Source: Fimbriimonadales bacterium (GTDB taxonomy: Bacteria > Armatimonadota > Fimbriimonadia > Fimbriimonadales > Fimbriimonadaceae). Taken from it: DNA of 41,165 bases. This document shows positions 4,156-22,097 of the stretch, in pieces. The DNA is taken from contig JAOACB010000007.1 in NCBI GenBank assembly GCA_026418055.1, positions 1 to 41,165 on the forward strand, read 5' to 3'. Positions within the stretch are counted from its first letter, which is position 1. Every line of letters begins with the position of its first letter. Below the pieces are notes generated by a model that saw only the letters and a list, made by a program, of their open reading frames with translations, had not been told where the DNA came from and searched no databases. The position numbers and the translations under genes are program-made.

Positions 4156-4932
4156 TCAGCGCCTGCGACCTCTGATCCAGAGGCCTCCCAACCCAAGGCC
4201 GAGCGCGGCGAGCGTGGCCGGCTCCGGCACGGGCTCGCGTCCCTCGAAACCCACGAGGTCGAACCGGCCGGTGCCGCTCGTGCCGTACGTGGATGAGGGA
4301 CTGTGCGGCAGATACAGCGCATCCCCCCGTCCGGTGGCCTCATCTTGGAAGACCGCGAGGATCCGGATGCCGAAGTTCGGGTTGTTTCCGGCCTGTGGAA
4401 TCGAGCTGAAGTCCACGAAGTGGTCGTACCACGGCGTCGCGCTGGGATCCCAAAGGTAGGCGTAGTTGTGGTCGAAGTACTCCTTGCGAATCCACGTCGA
4501 ACCGTCGAGGGTGTAGTCCAAGCGCCAGTACCTGCTCGCCGTGTTGCTCATCCGCATGGCGAAGCTGACGCGGATGTCGGTGTAGCCGAGCGTGCTGACC
4601 CGGAACTCCGCGCCCCTCGTCCCGCTGCCCGTGCCTTGCGCCGCGAAGGCCGCCAGGTTCCAGCCCGAGTTGTTGTTCCTAGCATCCTCAGGGTCCACGA
4701 GGACGTTCGGCATCTTGTCCCAGCCCATCGCGACGTTGCTGTTCGCCCCTCGCGCGAACGTTCCGGTCACGCCCCCGATCCGGCTCGCTGTCCCGTAGCC
4801 GATCACCGGATTCAATGTGCCGGTCGTGGAGTTGCCGTCGGAGGGATAGCTATTGAAGTCCCAAAGGGCGATCACCGTCGCCGAACCGGCGGAGAACAAA
4901 CCGAGCGCACCAAGCGCGAACCAAATCCTCAC
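4156..4932 (-). CDS. PEP-CTERM sorting-domain protein, function unknown
   Basis: The 258-residue product starts with a signal peptide (about 1-20) and ends with a PEP-CTERM tail: Val-Pro-Glu-Pro-Ala-Thr, a hydrophobic Gly/Leu segment, then Arg-Gly-Arg-Arg-Arg. Such tails are recognised by an exosortase and direct proteins to the cell surface or extracellular matrix. The body is rich in Asn, Ser, Tyr and Trp and looks like an all-beta extracellular domain. It contains the phrase Leu-Asp-Gly-Ser-Thr-Trp, typical of beta-sandwich surface proteins. I do not recognise a named domain. The GTG at 4932 is chosen because a G-rich Shine-Dalgarno (AGGGGGG) lies 5 nt upstream. A -10-like TATACT occurs at 4956-4961 on the minus strand with no good -35, so it probably has its own promoter, separated from the next operon by the terminator at 5037. 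Confidence 0.8.
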   Translation of the reverse strand: MRIWFALGALGLFSAGSATVIALWDFNSYPSDGNSTTGTLNPVIGYGTASRIGGVTGTFARGANSNVAMGWDKMPNVLVDPEDARNNNSGWNLAAFAAQGTGSGTRGAEFRVSTLGYTDIRVSFAMRMSNTASRYWRLDYTLDGSTWIRKEYFDHNYAYLWDPSATPWYDHFVDFSSIPQAGNNPNFGIRILAVFQDEATGRGDALYLPHSPSSTYGTSGTGRFDLVGFEGREPVPEPATLAALGLGLGGLWIRGRRR

Positions 4933-5036
4933 CGCTTCCCCCCTACTAAGGCAGAAGTATAGGACATGCCCCAGCCCCGTTGGCCACGGGCGACCAGGCA
5001 TTTTTACCGGTTTCCACCTTTTCTCTAGAAGCGGCA

Positions 5037-5062
5037 GAGGCCCCTGCGGCAGCAGGGGCCTC
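5037..5062 (-). terminator. Perfect stem-loop ending the cobalamin-regulated operon
   Basis: An 11-bp perfect inverted repeat (5037-5047 with 5052-5062) has a 4-nt loop. It lies 28 nt after the stop of the minus-strand gene at 5090. There is no strict T tract, but the stability and position suggest transcript termination or 3' end protection. Confidence 0.6.
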
Positions 5063-5089
5063 GACAGCCTCGTGTAGGCGGGCGTGAGG

Positions 5090-5869
5090 CTAGGCGCGCC
5101 TTCGGCGCAGGGCGGCTCCGAGACCAAGCAGCAACGCTGCGGCGGTCGCCGGCTCCGGCACCGCCTGATAGCGGGCTCCCACGGCGTCCAAGTCGAACCC
5201 GGAAGACTGGAAAGGAGTGGGCCAAGGATCGTTGATCCTGTTCCCGAGCGAGTCGTACCGCGCGTACTGCGGATCCAGAGAGCCCACCACGTCGATCAGG
5301 CGCACCCAGTGGATGCGGTTCACGTCCAGCAGCGGCGAGACCGAAGCCAGGTCCTCGAGGTCGAACGGCGAGCCCTCCTGAGCAACGAACTGACCGGCCA
5401 GATTGTGGATGTCGGTGGGATCGATCCCCGCGAAACTACCCACCTGGGTCGTCGTCTGGGTCAGCGAGACCGATGGGAAGCGGAAAAAGTCCGTTCCGTT
5501 CGAGCTGACCTCGACGAAAGCCAGCTCGGCGAACACCCGGCTCGATCCAGCCAGCAGGAATCCGTTCTCCCACACGGCGAAGTCCCAGCCCGGGCCATTC
5601 GAGATGCCCTTCGCCAGGTGGAGGGTGATCCATCCTCCGTCACCCAGGCTGACCAGCGAGCCGTCCCGGTGCCCCAAGCCGTTCGACGCCACCCCGAACG
5701 ACGCATATCCGAGCGAAGGGTTCGCGATGTTCTGATACCCTCGCTGAAGCTCCGCCACGGAGGTGGCCCAGTGCGTCACCTCCGAAGCCAGAACGCCGTT
5801 CGAGGCGTAAGGACCCGCGAGCGCGACAACGGGCAACCCCGCGGTTGCCGCCACCCACCACGGCTTCAA
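5090..5869 (-). CDS. PEP-CTERM surface protein, partner of the DUF4465 protein
   Basis: This 259-residue secreted protein has an N-terminal signal peptide (Trp-Trp-Val-Ala, hydrophobic, Ala-Leu-Ala-Gly) and a C-terminal PEP-CTERM tail (Val-Pro-Glu-Pro-Ala-Thr then an Arg cluster). The middle contains Ser-Leu-Gly-Asp-Gly-Gly, Phe-Ala-Val-Trp-Glu-Asn-Gly-Phe, Ala-Phe-Val-Glu-Val-Ser-Ser-Asn-Gly and Ser-Gly-Phe-Asp-Leu-Asp-Ala-Val-Gly. From memory, this is a family of surface proteins often encoded next to DUF4465 proteins. TTG at 5869 is chosen because GGAGGA lies 5 nt upstream and the TTG overlaps the stop of the preceding gene (TTGA). It is the last gene of the operon under the cobalamin riboswitch. 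A role in binding or handling cobalamin at the surface is inference from that control. Confidence 0.82.
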   Translation of the reverse strand: MKPWWVAATAGLPVVALAGPYASNGVLASEVTHWATSVAELQRGYQNIANPSLGYASFGVASNGLGHRDGSLVSLGDGGWITLHLAKGISNGPGWDFAVWENGFLLAGSSRVFAELAFVEVSSNGTDFFRFPSVSLTQTTTQVGSFAGIDPTDIHNLAGQFVAQEGSPFDLEDLASVSPLLDVNRIHWVRLIDVVGSLDPQYARYDSLGNRINDPWPTPFQSSGFDLDAVGARYQAVPEPATAAALLLGLGAALRRRRA

Positions 5870-6657
5870 CGCCGTCCTCCGCGCCGACGGGCGGCAGCCC
5901 AACCGAGCGCCGCGGCCGAAAGCGCCAACGCGGCGGGCTCAGGAACAGGCACGCTGGCGAGCCTCAGGTCGTCCAGCGCGAAGTACGCCGGCGTGTTCAT
6001 GCCCCATGGGCCGACGTCGCTGGAGTCAAGCTGGAAGACGATCCGGTCGGCCGCGCCGAGCGGCGTCAGGTCGAACCACGTCCACTGCGTGAGCAGGTAG
6101 TCTTGGGAGCCGTCGTCGAAGCGGTAGTCGGCGAGGTAGATCTCGGCCTGCCCCGTGATCTGGCTTCCCGCATACCCGACGGCCACCAGCCGGAACCAGT
6201 CGGGATCGTTGCCGTCGTGGCCGCCGAACCGCTTGGCGAACAGATCCCCGGTCCTCATCGACCAGTAGGCGTAGGTGGTGTTCGTGACAAACACCCCGAT
6301 GGGCGCGAACCCGACGGGCAGAGCGACCACGGCGTCTCCGGGGCTGCCCGCGTAGGAGACCCCGTAGATGCCGCCCCCGCCGCGGCCAGCCCCCGTGATC
6401 GCCGAGAACTGGTTCAGGAACCCCGGGGTGGTCGTGTCGCTCTTGTTGGAGTAGGCGAAACCGGTCCAAGACTCGAAGCCGCCGCCCCAGTCGGTGTAGG
6501 CGTTTGAAAAGGACGCTCCCCTGCTGGCGAACGGCGCCTTGTAGTGCGCGCTGTCGGGAGCCAGAGCGAGATCCTCGAAGTCGACGGTAAGGGCCATGGC
6601 GCCGACGGGCGCGCAGGCGACGATGAGTGCTGCAAGGGTGCTTCTGCGATCGATCAT
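5866..6657 (-). CDS. DUF4465 PEP-CTERM surface protein
   Basis: This 263-residue protein has a signal peptide (about 1-22) and a PEP-CTERM tail (Val-Pro-Glu-Pro-Ala-Ala, hydrophobic stretch, Arg-Arg-Arg-Gly-Gly-Arg-Arg). The domain between matches what I know of DUF4465: an opening Val-Asp-Phe-Glu-Asp-Leu, Trp-Thr-Gly-Phe-Ala-Tyr-Ser-Asn, Thr-Asn-Thr-Thr-Tyr-Ala-Tyr, Tyr-Leu-Ala-Asp-Tyr-Arg-Phe, Trp-Gly-Met-Asn-Thr-Pro-Ala-Tyr-Phe-Ala-Leu-Asp. The fold is a predicted beta sandwich. DUF4465 proteins are, from memory, recurrent in vitamin B12 uptake loci of Bacteroidota, which fits the cobalamin riboswitch upstream here. The ATG at 6657 has AAAGGA just upstream. Translation of the next gene is coupled by a 4-bp overlap. 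Confidence 0.88.
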   Translation of the reverse strand: MIDRRSTLAALIVACAPVGAMALTVDFEDLALAPDSAHYKAPFASRGASFSNAYTDWGGGFESWTGFAYSNKSDTTTPGFLNQFSAITGAGRGGGGIYGVSYAGSPGDAVVALPVGFAPIGVFVTNTTYAYWSMRTGDLFAKRFGGHDGNDPDWFRLVAVGYAGSQITGQAEIYLADYRFDDGSQDYLLTQWTWFDLTPLGAADRIVFQLDSSDVGPWGMNTPAYFALDDLRLASVPVPEPAALALSAAALGWAAARRRGGRR

Positions 6658-6682: not shown

Positions 6683-7387
6683 TTACAGAAGGTCGTAGGC
6701 CGCATCGTCCTCGGAGAGGGCTCCGAGCCCAGGCTGGCCGGGGTCGCGGCGGTGCAACCTGTTGCTGGCCTTGGCATGCCCATCGGCCCAGGCCACGTTG
6801 GCGGCGCCGTCGTGGCGGAAATGCGTCTTCCCGATCTCGAAGAACGGATCGCTGGGGGCCCGAAGGAAGTTGTGGGCCATCGGCGGATTGCCAAAGGCGC
6901 CATCCGCGAACACGGCCGTTCCAGCGGGGTCGGCGATGGCTCCCAGCGGGGCGACGGGCCGCGAGGCGAACACGTCGCCACCGATGTACGTGGAGTTGTA
7001 GGCGTACCCGGTGAACGGCCTTCCCCAGGACTCTCCGTGGAACGTTGGGCAACGGTTCAGCTGTCCGGACTTGGTGTAGGGACCGAGCAGGCCCAGCGAG
7101 GCCTTGGCCTCCATCCAGTTCGTCCAGTCCATCCGGAAGTCCCACGCGGTCTCCAACGTGAAGTCCGCGGAGTAGTAGTAGGACGGACAGGCCACGTCGT
7201 CGTGGTCTCCGGCGTACATCGACCACGCCAGCACGATCTGGCGCGTGTTCGAGAGGCACGATGTCCTTTGGGCCGCCGCCTTGGCGCGCGCGAACACCGG
7301 GAACAGAATCGCCGCGAGGATCGCGACGATCGCGATCACCACCAGCAGCTCGATGAGCGTGAACGCTCTTGGGCGTTCAAGGGTCAT
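6683..7387 (-). CDS. Prepilin-like (pseudopilin) protein, first gene of cobalamin-regulated operon
   Basis: This 234-residue protein has a type III (prepilin) signal: a short basic leader, then Ala-Phe-Thr-Leu-Ile-Glu-Leu-Leu and a hydrophobic helix ending Leu-Phe-Pro-Val-Phe-Ala. The residue before the processed Phe is Ala instead of Gly. The C-terminal part contains [13 protein letters not shown], the signature seen in DUF1559-like pseudopilins of Planctomycetota and Armatimonadota. The ATG at 7387 is chosen because GGAGG lies 8 nt upstream and the leader then has normal length. That ribosome binding site is held in a hairpin (7394-7430) downstream of the riboswitch. It starts 25 nt before the DUF4465 gene and is probably exported or assembled by a type II secretion or type IV pilus-like machine encoded elsewhere. 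Confidence 0.88.
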
Positions 7388-7393
7388 GCTTTC

Positions 7394-7430
7394 GACCTCC
7401 TCTGAGACCCGTTCAGGGTCGGACGAGGTC
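7394..7430 (-). promoter_or_regulatory. Shine-Dalgarno-sequestering hairpin (riboswitch expression platform)
   Basis: In the minus-strand RNA, GACCTC (7430-7425) pairs with GAGGTC (7399-7394), two further pairs follow one mismatch, and GACCC/GGGTC (7420-7416 with 7410-7406) closes a 5-nt loop. The 3' arm contains the GAGGAGG ribosome binding site of the prepilin gene. The structure would block translation when formed, which is a common output for cobalamin riboswitches. Whether ligand binding forms or releases it cannot be read from sequence alone. Confidence 0.6.
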
Positions 7431-7450
7431 GCCAGGGAGCAGGGTCCTCT

Positions 7451-7467
7451 GGGTGGCGGAACCACCC
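7451..7467 (-). other. Hairpin between aptamer and ribosome binding site
   Basis: GGGTGG/CCACCC (7451-7456 with 7462-7467) forms a 6-bp stem with a 5-nt loop in the leader RNA. No T tract follows, so it is not an obvious terminator. It may be part of the expression platform. Confidence 0.4.
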
Positions 7468-7505
7468 CGTCGGTTGCCTATGCTCGTAGGCGACGAGACG
7501 ACGAT

Positions 7506-7633
7506 GCCGAGGCGCGGCATTCGGGCTCGTCGCTCCTGCCTCCGTAGGCTCAGCGCATCACCGTTGCGGCACAGCGCCGGGATCTCACCGGACTTCCCCG
7601 CCATGGTCCTGCCACGACAGCAAGAACCTCGGC
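7506..7633 (-). ncRNA. Cobalamin (B12) riboswitch aptamer
   Basis: Read on the minus strand, the stretch from 7599 to 7558 carries the cobalamin aptamer core: GGGGAAGTCCGGTGAGATCC, then CGGCGCTGTGCCGCAACGG and TGA, matching the family pattern GGGAA-n-GGTG...CCGGC...GCCGCnAC-GGTGA. A downstream GAGCCCGAATGCC (7528-7516) matches the conserved 3' segment. The ends close in a perfect 7-bp helix, GCCGAGG (7633-7627) with CCTCGGC (7512-7506). It lies about 120 nt upstream of the prepilin start and immediately after a promoter, so it controls the three-gene operon 7387 to 5090. In known members, cobalamin binding lowers expression. Confidence 0.92.
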
Positions 7634-7642
7634 TGTGTGCTC

Positions 7643-7672
7643 AGTATACGCGCTGGCCGCGCGAGCCGGCAA
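7643..7672 (-). promoter_or_regulatory. Promoter of the cobalamin-regulated operon
   Basis: On the minus strand a -35-like TTGCCG (7672-7667) and a -10 TATACT (7648-7643) are 18 bp apart. Transcription would begin near 7636, only a few bases before the first paired base of the riboswitch at 7633. The -35 begins 9 bp past the stop codon of the upstream gene. Confidence 0.7.
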
Positions 7673-8952: not shown

Positions 8953-10239
8953 CTAGCCGCCTGTTCGGACGGCCGCCGATCCGATCCGGAGAGGACCTTT
9001 TCCGCTTCCGGGCACCTTGCGGATGCCCAAACGGCGGAAACCGCGCTGCACGGCCGGGTGCGACTCGGTCAGGCGCCACACGAAGCCGTTGCGGTGGTTC
9101 TCGATCGCCAGCAGCATCATGCCGAGATCGATGCCGATGACGTCCGGACCAACCCAGTCCCGCGAAGGGTTGTAGCCGTTGGGGAATCCGTAGCGGCCCC
9201 AGGCTCGGGGGTGCTCCTTGCGCATGTGCCTGGCGAACGAGACCGCCAGCTCTGGGACGTACGGCACGGAGGCGACCGCGGAGGTCGGGGTGATGGTCCC
9301 GTTGTCCTCGATCCAACCAGGCGCCCCCAAAGCTCGGTAGCCGTCGGGAGAGTCGCAGGCGCTCAGCCCCCAGAAGTCGGGGCCGTATCCCGCGAACCCC
9401 AGGGGGTTGTCGATGCAGTACCGCCTGTTGGCGAGGATCGCGTTCCGAGTCGCCACCGAGTAGTCGATGCCGAGCCGGTCCCGCTTGTCGCGGAAGTCGA
9501 AGAAGCTCTCCGTCATTTGGTGGATGAACAGCGGACCGCCGGTGATGAATTCGATCCCCTTGTAGTTGTGGAACGTTCGCCCGATGGCCTCCCAGCCGTC
9601 CGTGCGGATGTCGCTCAGACCGCATCCCAGCACGTACAGCATCTTCTCCTCGCTGTACTGCGCCGACCATCGGTTCTTGAGAAAGCCCTCCTCGGGCTTC
9701 CAGCCGTGGCCGATCAGCTTCTCGTCCGGGCGGCTTCCGCCGTCCGTCAGCGCCCAATGCCAATCGATGCGCTTCGCGAACCGATCGGCGAGCGCTTCGA
9801 TCTCGCGATCCTTCCAGTACTGCCTTGCGGCCACCACTCCGGACAGCAGGATCGCTGTGTCGATGGTCGAGGCCTCGCTCTTCCACTCCCTCTTGCCGGT
9901 TTCCCAGTCGACGAAGTGGTACAGCCAGCCGCGCTCTCCCTCCACCAGATCGTTGATCGAGCGCAGCGTGCGCACGGTGCGCTGCCGGGCGTCCGCCCGA
10001 TCCATCCAACCGCGCTCCACGCCGATGGCATAGGCAACCAGCGCAAATCCCGTCGAGGCGATGCTCGCCACTCGAAAGTCGTCCGATCCCGAGTTTGAAG
10101 CCCTGTCCTTGGTCAGGCCGGTCTTCGGGTGGGACTCGTTGCGGAAGAACAGGAAAGCCCTCCGCTGGAGGTCCTCCAGAAGGGGGTCGATCCTAGGCGC
10201 CGCGGAAAGGCCGAGGGTTGCCAAGAGGAGTGTCACCAT
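8953..10239 (-). CDS. GH144-type glucanase / glucoamylase-like (PF10091) secreted enzyme
   Basis: This 428-residue enzyme begins with a short signal peptide (about 1-14) and continues as an (alpha/alpha)6-barrel of the glycoamylase-like family. Matching segments are Leu-Gln-Arg-Arg-Ala-Phe-Leu-Phe-Phe near the start, Val-Ala-Ser-Ile-Ala-Ser-Thr-Gly-Phe-Ala, Trp-Leu-Tyr-His-Phe-Val-Asp, Ser-Thr-Ile-Asp-Thr-Ala-Ile-Leu, Trp-Gly-Leu-Ser-Ala-Cys-Asp and Gly-Arg-Tyr-Gly-Phe-Pro-Asn-Gly-Tyr-Asn. Characterised GH144 enzymes are endo-beta-1,2-glucanases, so beta-1,2-glucan is a reasonable substrate, but the family is broad. The ATG at 10239 has a GGAAGGAAG ribosome binding site. It lies 73 nt behind the prepilin-like gene, in a group led by a LacI-type regulator, so sugar-inducible expression is likely. 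Confidence 0.85.
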   Translation of the reverse strand: MVTLLLATLGLSAAPRIDPLLEDLQRRAFLFFRNESHPKTGLTKDRASNSGSDDFRVASIASTGFALVAYAIGVERGWMDRADARQRTVRTLRSINDLVEGERGWLYHFVDWETGKREWKSEASTIDTAILLSGVVAARQYWKDREIEALADRFAKRIDWHWALTDGGSRPDEKLIGHGWKPEEGFLKNRWSAQYSEEKMLYVLGCGLSDIRTDGWEAIGRTFHNYKGIEFITGGPLFIHQMTESFFDFRDKRDRLGIDYSVATRNAILANRRYCIDNPLGFAGYGPDFWGLSACDSPDGYRALGAPGWIEDNGTITPTSAVASVPYVPELAVSFARHMRKEHPRAWGRYGFPNGYNPSRDWVGPDVIGIDLGMMLLAIENHRNGFVWRLTESHPAVQRGFRRLGIRKVPGSGKGPLRIGSAAVRTGG

Positions 10240-10312: not shown

Positions 10313-11116
10313 TTACTTGACCTCGTTGGGCATGGTCTGGCAGTAGGTGTCGACCCACCGCACGTCGCCCAGCCCTCCCCAGTTGCTCAGCTGGTTGCGG
10401 ACGTAGCCCCATGCGTTCATCTCGTCGTCCTTGCCGCAGATCGCGGTGTGCGTCATGCGCTTGGCGTGGCTGTCGTGGAAGACCAGAATCATGGCCTTCT
10501 CGCTCCACTTGTTGCCGCCCCAAGGCCAGCCGAGAGCTCCGACGTTTCCGAAGGTCGGATCCCAGTCGTTCTTGTCCCAGTTCAGGTAGGGGCCGGTGTC
10601 GACCCACACGCGCTTGTGCTCGGCGATGGCCAGCGTGCCGCCAGGGTTCTCGATCGCCGTGGTGGTGATCGTCTGGGCCGACCAGCTCTTCATGTGCAGC
10701 CAGGGAATGTCCGCGAACGCGTAGCCCCGCGCCAGCACCGGACCCACGACCTCCTGGCCCCAGCTCGCTCGGAGCAGCGGGTCGGAGCAGTCGTCCGGAT
10801 ACTTGGCGGCCGGGTTCATCGGGTCGTTGAACAGCTGGATGTTCTTGATGTACGGGTAGGTCAGCTGCTTCCAGGAGAGCTCGCCCTTCTGGCTGCCGTC
10901 CGGGTTGTTCACGCGGACGCGCCGCGGGGCGTACGTGTCGTCGTAGTCCGCCACGTACATCTGGATCGCCGTGCCGATCTGCTTCATGTTGCTCAGGGCC
11001 TGAGTGGCCTTGGCGGCGGCCTTGGCCTGGGCGAAGACCGGGAACAGGATGGCGGCGAGGATCGCGATGATCGCGATGACGACCAAGAGCTCGATCAGAG
11101 TGAAGGCTCGCTTCAT
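10313..11116 (-). CDS. Prepilin-like (pseudopilin) protein in the LacI-GH144 group
   Basis: The 267-residue product has a minimal prepilin leader, Met-Lys-Arg-Ala, then Phe-Thr-Leu-Ile-Glu-Leu-Leu-Val-Val and a hydrophobic helix ending Phe-Pro-Val-Phe-Ala-Gln-Ala-Lys, typical of Armatimonadota. As in the other prepilin of this window, Ala occupies the position before the cleaved bond. The C-terminal Val-Phe-His-Asp-Ser-His-Ala-Lys matches the DUF1559-like signature. ATG at 11116 is preferred over the ATG at 11128 because GATGAGGT lies at correct spacing. It starts 8 nt after the stop of the LacI-type regulator and precedes the GH144 gene. It may help export or display the glucanase, which is inference from gene order. 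Confidence 0.88.
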
Positions 11117-22022: not shown

Positions 22023-22097
22023 GCCGGCGTAGCTCAGCGGTAGAGCGGCTGTTTTGTAAACAGCGGGTCGCGGGTTCGAATCCTGTCGCCGGCTCCA
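22023..22097 (+). tRNA. tRNA-Thr (anticodon TGT)
   Basis: The 75-nt sequence folds as a standard tRNA: acceptor GCCGGCG/CGCCGGC, D arm GCTC/GAGC, anticodon stem GCTGT/ACAGC with loop TTTGTAA (anticodon TGT, reading ACA and related Thr codons), T arm GCGGG-TTCGAAT-CCTGT, discriminator T, and encoded CCA. It stands alone, followed by structured non-coding sequence. Confidence 0.97.

Follow-up and report, generated by a model that had tools for sequence, protein, structure and literature searches.

A ribosome-binding-site hairpin and probable translational control in a cobalamin riboswitch leader preceding a prepilin gene of a Fimbriimonadales bacterium

How does a cobalamin riboswitch act on the operon behind it, and why would that operon begin with a prepilin gene? 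Both questions are raised by a leader in a contig of a Fimbriimonadales bacterium (family Fimbriimonadaceae). We refer to the whole stretch of DNA analysed, 41,165 nucleotides, as the window. The leader contains the following features:

7643–7672, minus strand: promoter-like site TTGCCG-18-TATACT immediately before the aptamer; weak, with 9 of 12 consensus positions
7494–7646, minus strand: cobalamin riboswitch aptamer (RF00174, 46.1 bits, gathering score 31.5, E = 1.4e-8)
7567–7572, minus strand: L5 loop segment GUGCCG, near-constant in family aptamers as CUGUGCCGC
7476–7491, minus strand: P13-L13 hairpin GCCUA-CGAGCA-UAGGC, presumed kissing partner of L5, with stem covariation
7464–7471, minus strand: candidate anti-sequestor GACGGGGU, complementary to ACCUCGUC (7429–7422) in the 5' arm of the ribosome binding site (RBS) stem
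7451–7467, minus strand: putative middle hairpin between P13 and the RBS hairpin, seen in the fold only
7393–7431, minus strand: RBS-sequestering hairpin (shuffle fold test, whole-leader partition function and family hairpin statistics)
7396–7402, minus strand: Shine-Dalgarno GAGGAGG in the 3' arm of the RBS hairpin, read from sequence and fold

Judged by its RF00174 match, the leader aptamer is a genuine cobalamin riboswitch; the promoter-like site was found once where 0.3 would be expected. We searched RF00174 in 85 genomes of the Fimbriimonadaceae, 62 of which had a match at E ≤ 0.001, and the family set comprises the window's aptamer and 67 other matches (n = 68). For the aptamers of some relatives, AdoCbl-II (RF01689) or AdoCbl (RF01482) is the better fit. 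The window leader shares the aptamer, L5 and the downstream P13-L13 hairpin with RF00174 riboswitches, and differs from them in its prepilin target, in a separate RBS hairpin downstream of P13 and in having no terminator. The L5 sequence is present almost without change in nearly all family aptamers, and its GUGC-CG could pair with CG-A-GCAU of L13 with one A bulged; both sides hardly vary. According to PMC9600662, it is through such an L5-L13 contact that ligand binding is coupled to the expression platform. The P13 hairpin takes the form of 42 distinct 20-mers among the 68 family aptamers, with changes on both sides in five of five pairs; 95% of the stem cells are paired and the covariation score is 0.66, against 0.24 when shuffled (0/500) and at most 0.10 when slid. 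The rows were chosen by the loop motif plus at least three flanking pairs, the inner three, which leaves the outer two as the only pairs independent of selection.

Further downstream, the sequence-only reading had placed the Shine-Dalgarno in the 3' arm of a stem directly before the start codon, and this was borne out. In a partition function over the whole 291-nt leader (7660–7370), six of the seven bases of GAGGAGG are paired with a probability of about 0.98–0.99, and G7400 is the only free one. The stem has an outer helix of seven pairs on the minus strand (CGACCUC, 7431–7425, with GAGGUCG, 7399–7393) and two further pairs (UC, 7423–7422, with GA, 7402–7401), and encloses an inner hairpin, GACCC-UGAAC-GGGUC (7420–7406). 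The 49-nt segment 7435–7387 folds with a minimum free energy of -26.0 kcal/mol, against -15.4 ± 2.8 in shuffles (z = -3.75), and none of 200 shuffles was equally stable. The RBS hairpin of the window leader is real; only its limits, first given as 7394–7430, needed refining to 7431–7393, one base wider on each side. GGAGG (7400–7396) lies 8 nt upstream of the ATG at 7387, and that ATG is supported as the true start: an identical 8-residue leader peptide precedes the prepilin motif in two congeners (G148 and G149).

The hairpin also recurs across the family. We scored the best closed hairpin ending at most 12 nt from the start codon, taking as controls 1160 dinucleotide shuffles and, from the window's genome, the leaders of 29 of its 58 further prepilins, those with loci available. 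The 58 riboswitch-prepilin leaders of the family had a median of -10.9 kcal/mol, with 52 reaching -6 kcal/mol and 46 reaching -8. The control leaders had a median of -6.2 kcal/mol (-6 in 16/29, -8 in 10/29; p = 1.3e-4 vs the family) and the shuffles one of -6.9 kcal/mol (-6 in 58%, -8 in 40%; p = 1.3e-10 vs the family). Taken one by one, 19 of the 58 family leaders form a better hairpin than any of their own 20 shuffles, and 29 are equalled by no more than one shuffle; six had no hairpin of -6 kcal/mol near the start codon. A first measure, pairing at positions -14 to -6, differed from 17 controls (p = 0.004), but fitted poorly because many hairpins lie nearer the start codon, and was replaced.

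A covariance comparison across homologous leaders, suggested along with the hairpin, gave a divided answer: the hairpin recurs, but column-wise covariation of its stem is suggestive in one comparison and contrary in another. The stem arms vary by genus (GGCCUC/GAGGUC, UCUGGCC/GGUCAGA). Among close leaders (34 ordered pairs), 24 of 48 changed stem pairs still pair, against 18% for a random single change and 43% for a double one, and change affects 9% of paired positions vs 23% of unpaired ones. At lower identity, 25–34% of the changed stem pairs still pair. Over 953 leader pairs the true register scored 0.28 and the slid registers 0.37–0.40, a contrary or uninformative result that we ascribe to misalignment, and RNAalifold returned no consensus structure for 12 simple RBS hairpins. 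Overall, we regard covariation by column in the RBS stem as suggestive at most.

The earlier observation that the leader lacks a clear intrinsic terminator was upheld: a scan of 8000–4900 found no terminator-like site on the minus strand, and one on the plus strand within the prepilin gene. Terminator-like elements occur in 5 of the 58 family linkers (shuffles 3%) vs 24 of 50 prepilin linkers outside the family (shuffles 10%), where RBS hairpins are weakly enriched (p = 0.04). From this difference, the family appears to have shifted to translational control, terminators often being retained elsewhere in the phylum. The pairing of this aptamer with this target also offers a natural series of expression platforms, running from the terminator type to the RBS-hairpin type.

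In four relatives, a CGAGCA-loop hairpin adjoins the start codon. The Shine-Dalgarno hairpin of one (G106) itself carries the loop (UGACCUC-CGAGCA-GAGGUCA) and ends 1 nt before the start codon, in another (G155) the CGAGCA-loop hairpin ends 9 nt upstream of it, and in the remaining two (G150 and G151) AGG lies within the 3' arm of the P13 hairpin. In all four, one helix would be common to the RBS and to the loop expected to kiss L5.

In the window leader, ligand-dependent switching is expected. Two general models of a switching helix were rejected: linker complements of the CGAGCA loop were not enriched over 49 leaders (Wilcoxon p = 0.70), and a test in 52 leaders for a general anti-sequestor, complementary to the 5' arm of the RBS hairpin, found no enrichment either (p = 0.41). 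For the window's genus we can point to a candidate anti-sequestor, GACGGGGU at 7471–7464. Its predicted pairing with ACCUCGUC was equalled by 0 of 60 shuffles in the window and 3 of 60 in G149, and forcing the helix costs 10.3 kcal/mol in the leader fold. Both segments are identical across three species of the genus, so the pairing shows no covariation.

Could the riboswitch instead act on transcription, by attenuation or Rho, with the RBS hairpin constitutive or secondary? The frequent terminator-like elements outside the family (24/50), the failure of both general anti-sequestor models (p = 0.70, p = 0.41) and the premature termination proposed in PMC12751083 for the btu riboswitches of Bacteroides thetaiotaomicron would all fit. 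However, the window leader has no terminator-like site on its own strand, the family has few (5/58) and RBS hairpins are enriched in its leaders, and we regard transcriptional control as rather unlikely here. A hairpin that merely reflects the usual folding of a GC-rich leader and regulates nothing is more improbable still: weak column covariation and the -6 kcal/mol hairpins in 16/29 control leaders and 58% of shuffles would agree with this reading, but it fits poorly with the shift in distribution (p = 1.3e-4 and 1.3e-10), the window's z of -3.75 and the lower rate of change at paired positions in close leader pairs (9% vs 23%).

Translational control is our best reading for the window operon. 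The sequence-only reading had named it as the likely output, and the enrichment of hairpins in the family and the scarcity of terminator-like elements support it; structure prediction and comparison together make the hairpin and a translational mode well supported. With bound B12, we infer, L5 of the aptamer would kiss L13 of the P13 hairpin (7491–7476), the rest of the leader would fold with the RBS inside the 7431–7393 hairpin, and translation would be off. When B12 is absent, the P13 region could refold, and the RBS stem would let go of its 5' arm, in the window's genus perhaps through 7471–7464, so that translation could start. We consider it probable that the leader is a translational cobalamin riboswitch platform controlling a B12-acquisition operon with a dedicated prepilin. 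The operon consists of three genes:

6683–7387, minus strand: prepilin of 234 aa, type B of the riboswitch-linked lineage (N_methyl, PF07963, 4.9e-8)
5866–6657, minus strand: protein of the B12-binding family DUF4465 with a C-terminal PEP-CTERM-like tail (PF14717, 9.9e-52)
5090–5869, minus strand: secreted PEP-CTERM protein of family c12, whose probable TTG start overlaps the DUF4465 stop codon

The first of these carries a prepilin cleavage/methylation motif (PF07963, 32.7 bits vs a cut-off of 21.2). Its AlphaFold2 model (pLDDT 94.1) has a helix at 11–61 followed by the strands of a C-terminal beta domain. Foldseek gave no match to this model at E ≤ 0.001. A second comparison listed 13 matches with Z ≥ 2, every one of them a type IV pilin; the best was Thermus PilA4 (3.6 A over 123 residues, Z 6.4), and a score at this level is not by itself proof. 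The fold is that of a pilin, and no B12 site was seen in the model or the fold matches. The protein shares the N_methyl motif, PF07596 (just above the cut-off) and TIGR04294 with DUF1559 / H-X9-DG prepilins. By eye, the riboswitch-linked prepilins fall into two types: type B, the window's, of about 234 aa, and type A, of about 254 aa. Type A (e.g. L056, L066) ends in a C-terminal tail, DIDxDGDLxTDELFDL, that resembles a calcium-binding EF-hand loop.

The pairing of aptamer and prepilin is widespread. A prepilin motif lies 3' of the aptamer in 58 of the 68 family cases and in 51 of 70 cases examined elsewhere in the phylum (57 of 62 matches from genomes with weaker hits, plus 13 picked among the top-scoring matches listed, nine of which had the motif). 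Three more cases were recognised by eye (G088, G132, G012), missed by the strict pattern and left outside the counts. Several of the remaining targets relate to B12: a Plug-domain receptor (G122:C41), FecCD permeases (G093:C78, G096:C7), and c0/c1 partners or a propeller-like secreted protein. In the window's genome, two aptamers were found at E ≤ 0.001, one of which precedes a prepilin, and only 1 of its 59 prepilin motifs adjoins such an aptamer. The second cobalamin aptamer (L044, G000:C69:78138-78262) scores 29.8 bits, below the gathering score, and G149 has an aptamer at C24 in similar surroundings.

To compare the proteins themselves, we assembled 106 riboswitch-linked prepilins (56 from the family, 50 from outside), leaving out G148 (masked bases), G087 (contig end) and one outside case without a full frame. 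With the conserved N-terminus removed, all 106 had another riboswitch-linked prepilin as their best match (median 332 bits), vs a median of 50 bits to 29 other prepilins of the window's genome, the only source of controls. By this measure, they form one lineage of their own, set apart from the other prepilins of that genome, rather than a sample of generic pilins. We found no description of a B12-controlled prepilin lineage in the open-licence PMC literature searched, in which it appears undescribed; the riboswitch and the hairpin are of known kind.

We also scanned a named collection of species genomes with a protein pattern derived from the type B body, using no RNA information. This gave 75 loci, in the Fimbriimonadaceae (closest match 85%), in other Armatimonadota and in genomes labelled Omnitrophota, Ratteibacteria, Elusimicrobia, TA06 and Vermiphilus. 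The strong loci number 53 (L206–L258). Rfam was run on 50 of these (L207, L211 and L235, omitted, are the G148, G128 and G120 loci), and in 45 of the 50 a riboswitch of the cobalamin clan lies upstream in the same orientation. In four of the others (L229, L252, L255, L256) the contig extends no more than 327 nt beyond the match on its upstream side. The true exception, L209, combines the prepilin with DUF4465 and c12, and there no riboswitch reaches the gathering score. The 22 weak loci come from genomes labelled Planctomycetota, Verrucomicrobiota, Hydrogenedentota or Lentisphaeria; a riboswitch was found in 12 of 18 scanned, 0.3–3.6 kb upstream. On these comparisons, B12 control of the prepilin lineage is conserved across the phylum and in some others.

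Its neighbours repeatedly concern B12. The riboswitch and prepilin of L241 are followed, in this order, by a homocysteine methyltransferase (S-methyl_trans), Peripla_BP_2 (the BtuF family), FecCD and ABC_tran; in L264 the prepilin is followed by FecCD, ABC_tran and CobU; L246 has CobU and a CobT-family gene near the prepilin; and L260 has the order DUF4465, c12, prepilin. We searched for partners with our own profiles at E ≤ 1e-6, which were partly seeded from the same loci and gave some weak matches. At least one of BtuF, BtuC, DUF4465, c12, c1 and c0 lies on the same strand of the examined stretch in 60 of the 75 scan loci, and BtuF exceeds 100 bits in 20, eight of which were profile seeds. 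In the family loci, a recognised partner lies within 4.5 kb in 21 of 58; in the other 37, these profiles recognised no B12 partner of the prepilin within that distance.

Several partner families were noted on the way. Cluster c0 (L059:2428-2991, L193:2099-2812) is a small secreted family with the pattern FxDIxxWxGxG that recurs behind riboswitch prepilins; the L193 protein had no PDB relative by sequence up to E 1, giving tail or weak profile matches only. In a genome labelled Akkermansia muciniphila (L272), a riboswitch, c0-like and c12-like genes and a distant relative of the riboswitch prepilin occur together. In five loci (L174, L175, L181, L186 and L150; families f3, f4 and f5), a riboswitch directly precedes a secreted protein of 315–348 aa with a PEP-CTERM-like end and, by eye, propeller-like repeats. 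That of L175 had no PDB relative by sequence up to E 1; these proteins are possible new B12 binders.

In the window, the product of the second gene of the operon scores 176.3 bits with PF14717, against a cut-off of 25, and has MNTPAY (a conserved Tyr motif) at the place of MNTPSY, which PMC12751083 gives as the hallmark of the family. By sequence it is a member of the B12-binding family; its PDB relatives include 9fct (BtuJ1 with B12), and PMC13398666 reports B12 binding by eight distantly related members. Its PEP-CTERM tail lies below the Pfam cut-off and reaches 18 bits vs 16 with TIGR02595. Few genomes of the phylum have DUF4465 (6 of 291 searched), and five of the six genes lie behind a riboswitch and a prepilin; the sixth (G083:C45, on the same contig as L209) accompanies a prepilin and c12, with no riboswitch at gathering score. 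The c12 family recurs beside riboswitch-linked prepilins. A PDB sequence search with the window's c12 protein gave only matches of E 0.2–0.27 to unrelated dehydrogenases, and its AlphaFold2 model is poor (pLDDT 60.1). After the operon, a GC-rich inverted repeat, GGCCCCTGC/GCAGGGGCC (5060–5039, minus strand), was noticed by eye and is absent from the terminator scan output, and a frame for a PEP-CTERM protein (4156–5127, minus strand) is probably a separate unit.

The nearest described counterparts are the btu loci of B. thetaiotaomicron (BtuB, BtuG, BtuH, BtuJ, BtuFCD), as presented in PMC12751083 and PMC13398666. Both systems have a riboswitch and a DUF4465 protein (BtuJ), the BtuJ1 and BtuJ2 genes lying within riboswitch-controlled operons according to PMC12751083, and the BtuFCD families occur both there and in operons related to the window's. 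Unlike the btu loci, the window has a prepilin in its operon, a genome without a match to a Plug-domain receptor, PEP-CTERM-like tails instead of lipoprotein anchors and, in our reading, translational control, where PMC12751083 proposes termination.

The rest of the genome bears on what the prepilin could do. It has eight T2SSE matches above cut-off, six secretin matches and one prepilin peptidase match, so the prepilin could be processed and assembled. No Plug-domain receptor was matched in this draft (G000, 96.8% complete); in the family such receptors occur in 21 of 85 genomes, and were not found in 45 of the 58 with a riboswitch-prepilin. Their absence is not associated with the riboswitch-prepilin within the family (receptor in 13/58 vs 8/27, p = 0.59). 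FecCD is the permease family to which BtuC belongs, as do siderophore permeases. It is found in 81 of 85 family genomes and in both congeners, but was not found in the window's draft genome.

We propose that the operon is one for B12 acquisition, in which a prepilin dedicated to this task would act alongside a surface protein of the B12-binding family DUF4465 and another secreted protein. From its conserved regulation and neighbourhood, the prepilin is likely to be a B12-acquisition component, and we infer for it a working part in B12 capture or in passage through the envelope. Extending this, we suggest only tentatively that in Armatimonadota and several other phyla, a B12-repressed prepilin and surface B12-binding proteins could form an outer-envelope uptake stage feeding BtuFCD, without a TonB-dependent BtuB. 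If true, this would be a pilin- or pseudopilus-based vitamin importer. The prepilin bears on how diderms without TonB-dependent receptors take B12 across the outer membrane, and its conserved, riboswitch-marked lineage offers a direct gene target for the study of B12 uptake.

Perhaps the prepilin is instead a pseudopilin of a T2SS-like machine that exports the B12-binding surface proteins, and neither a binder nor a conduit. The secreted partners with sorting tails that follow it, the T2SSE (8), secretin (6) and peptidase genes, and the GspG-type profile matches, far below their cut-offs as they are, make this a possible role. It is harder to reconcile with the 37 of 58 family loci where no such partner was recognised, or with loci of the L241 type, in which the prepilin directly heads a methyltransferase-BtuF-BtuC-BtuD operon; we leave it as a possibility of less than even weight. 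Control by B12 status of adhesion, motility or partner-finding through the pilin, with no involvement in uptake, seems unlikely: the pilin fold of the model would suit it, and B12 auxotrophs depend on neighbours, but in several phyla the prepilin shares operons with BtuFCD, CobU, CobT and B12-binding proteins.

Elsewhere in the window, we observed a glucoamylase-family protein (PF10091) at 8953–10239 and another prepilin motif at 11042–11113, both on the minus strand, and a tRNA gene (69 bits) at 22023–22094 on the plus strand.
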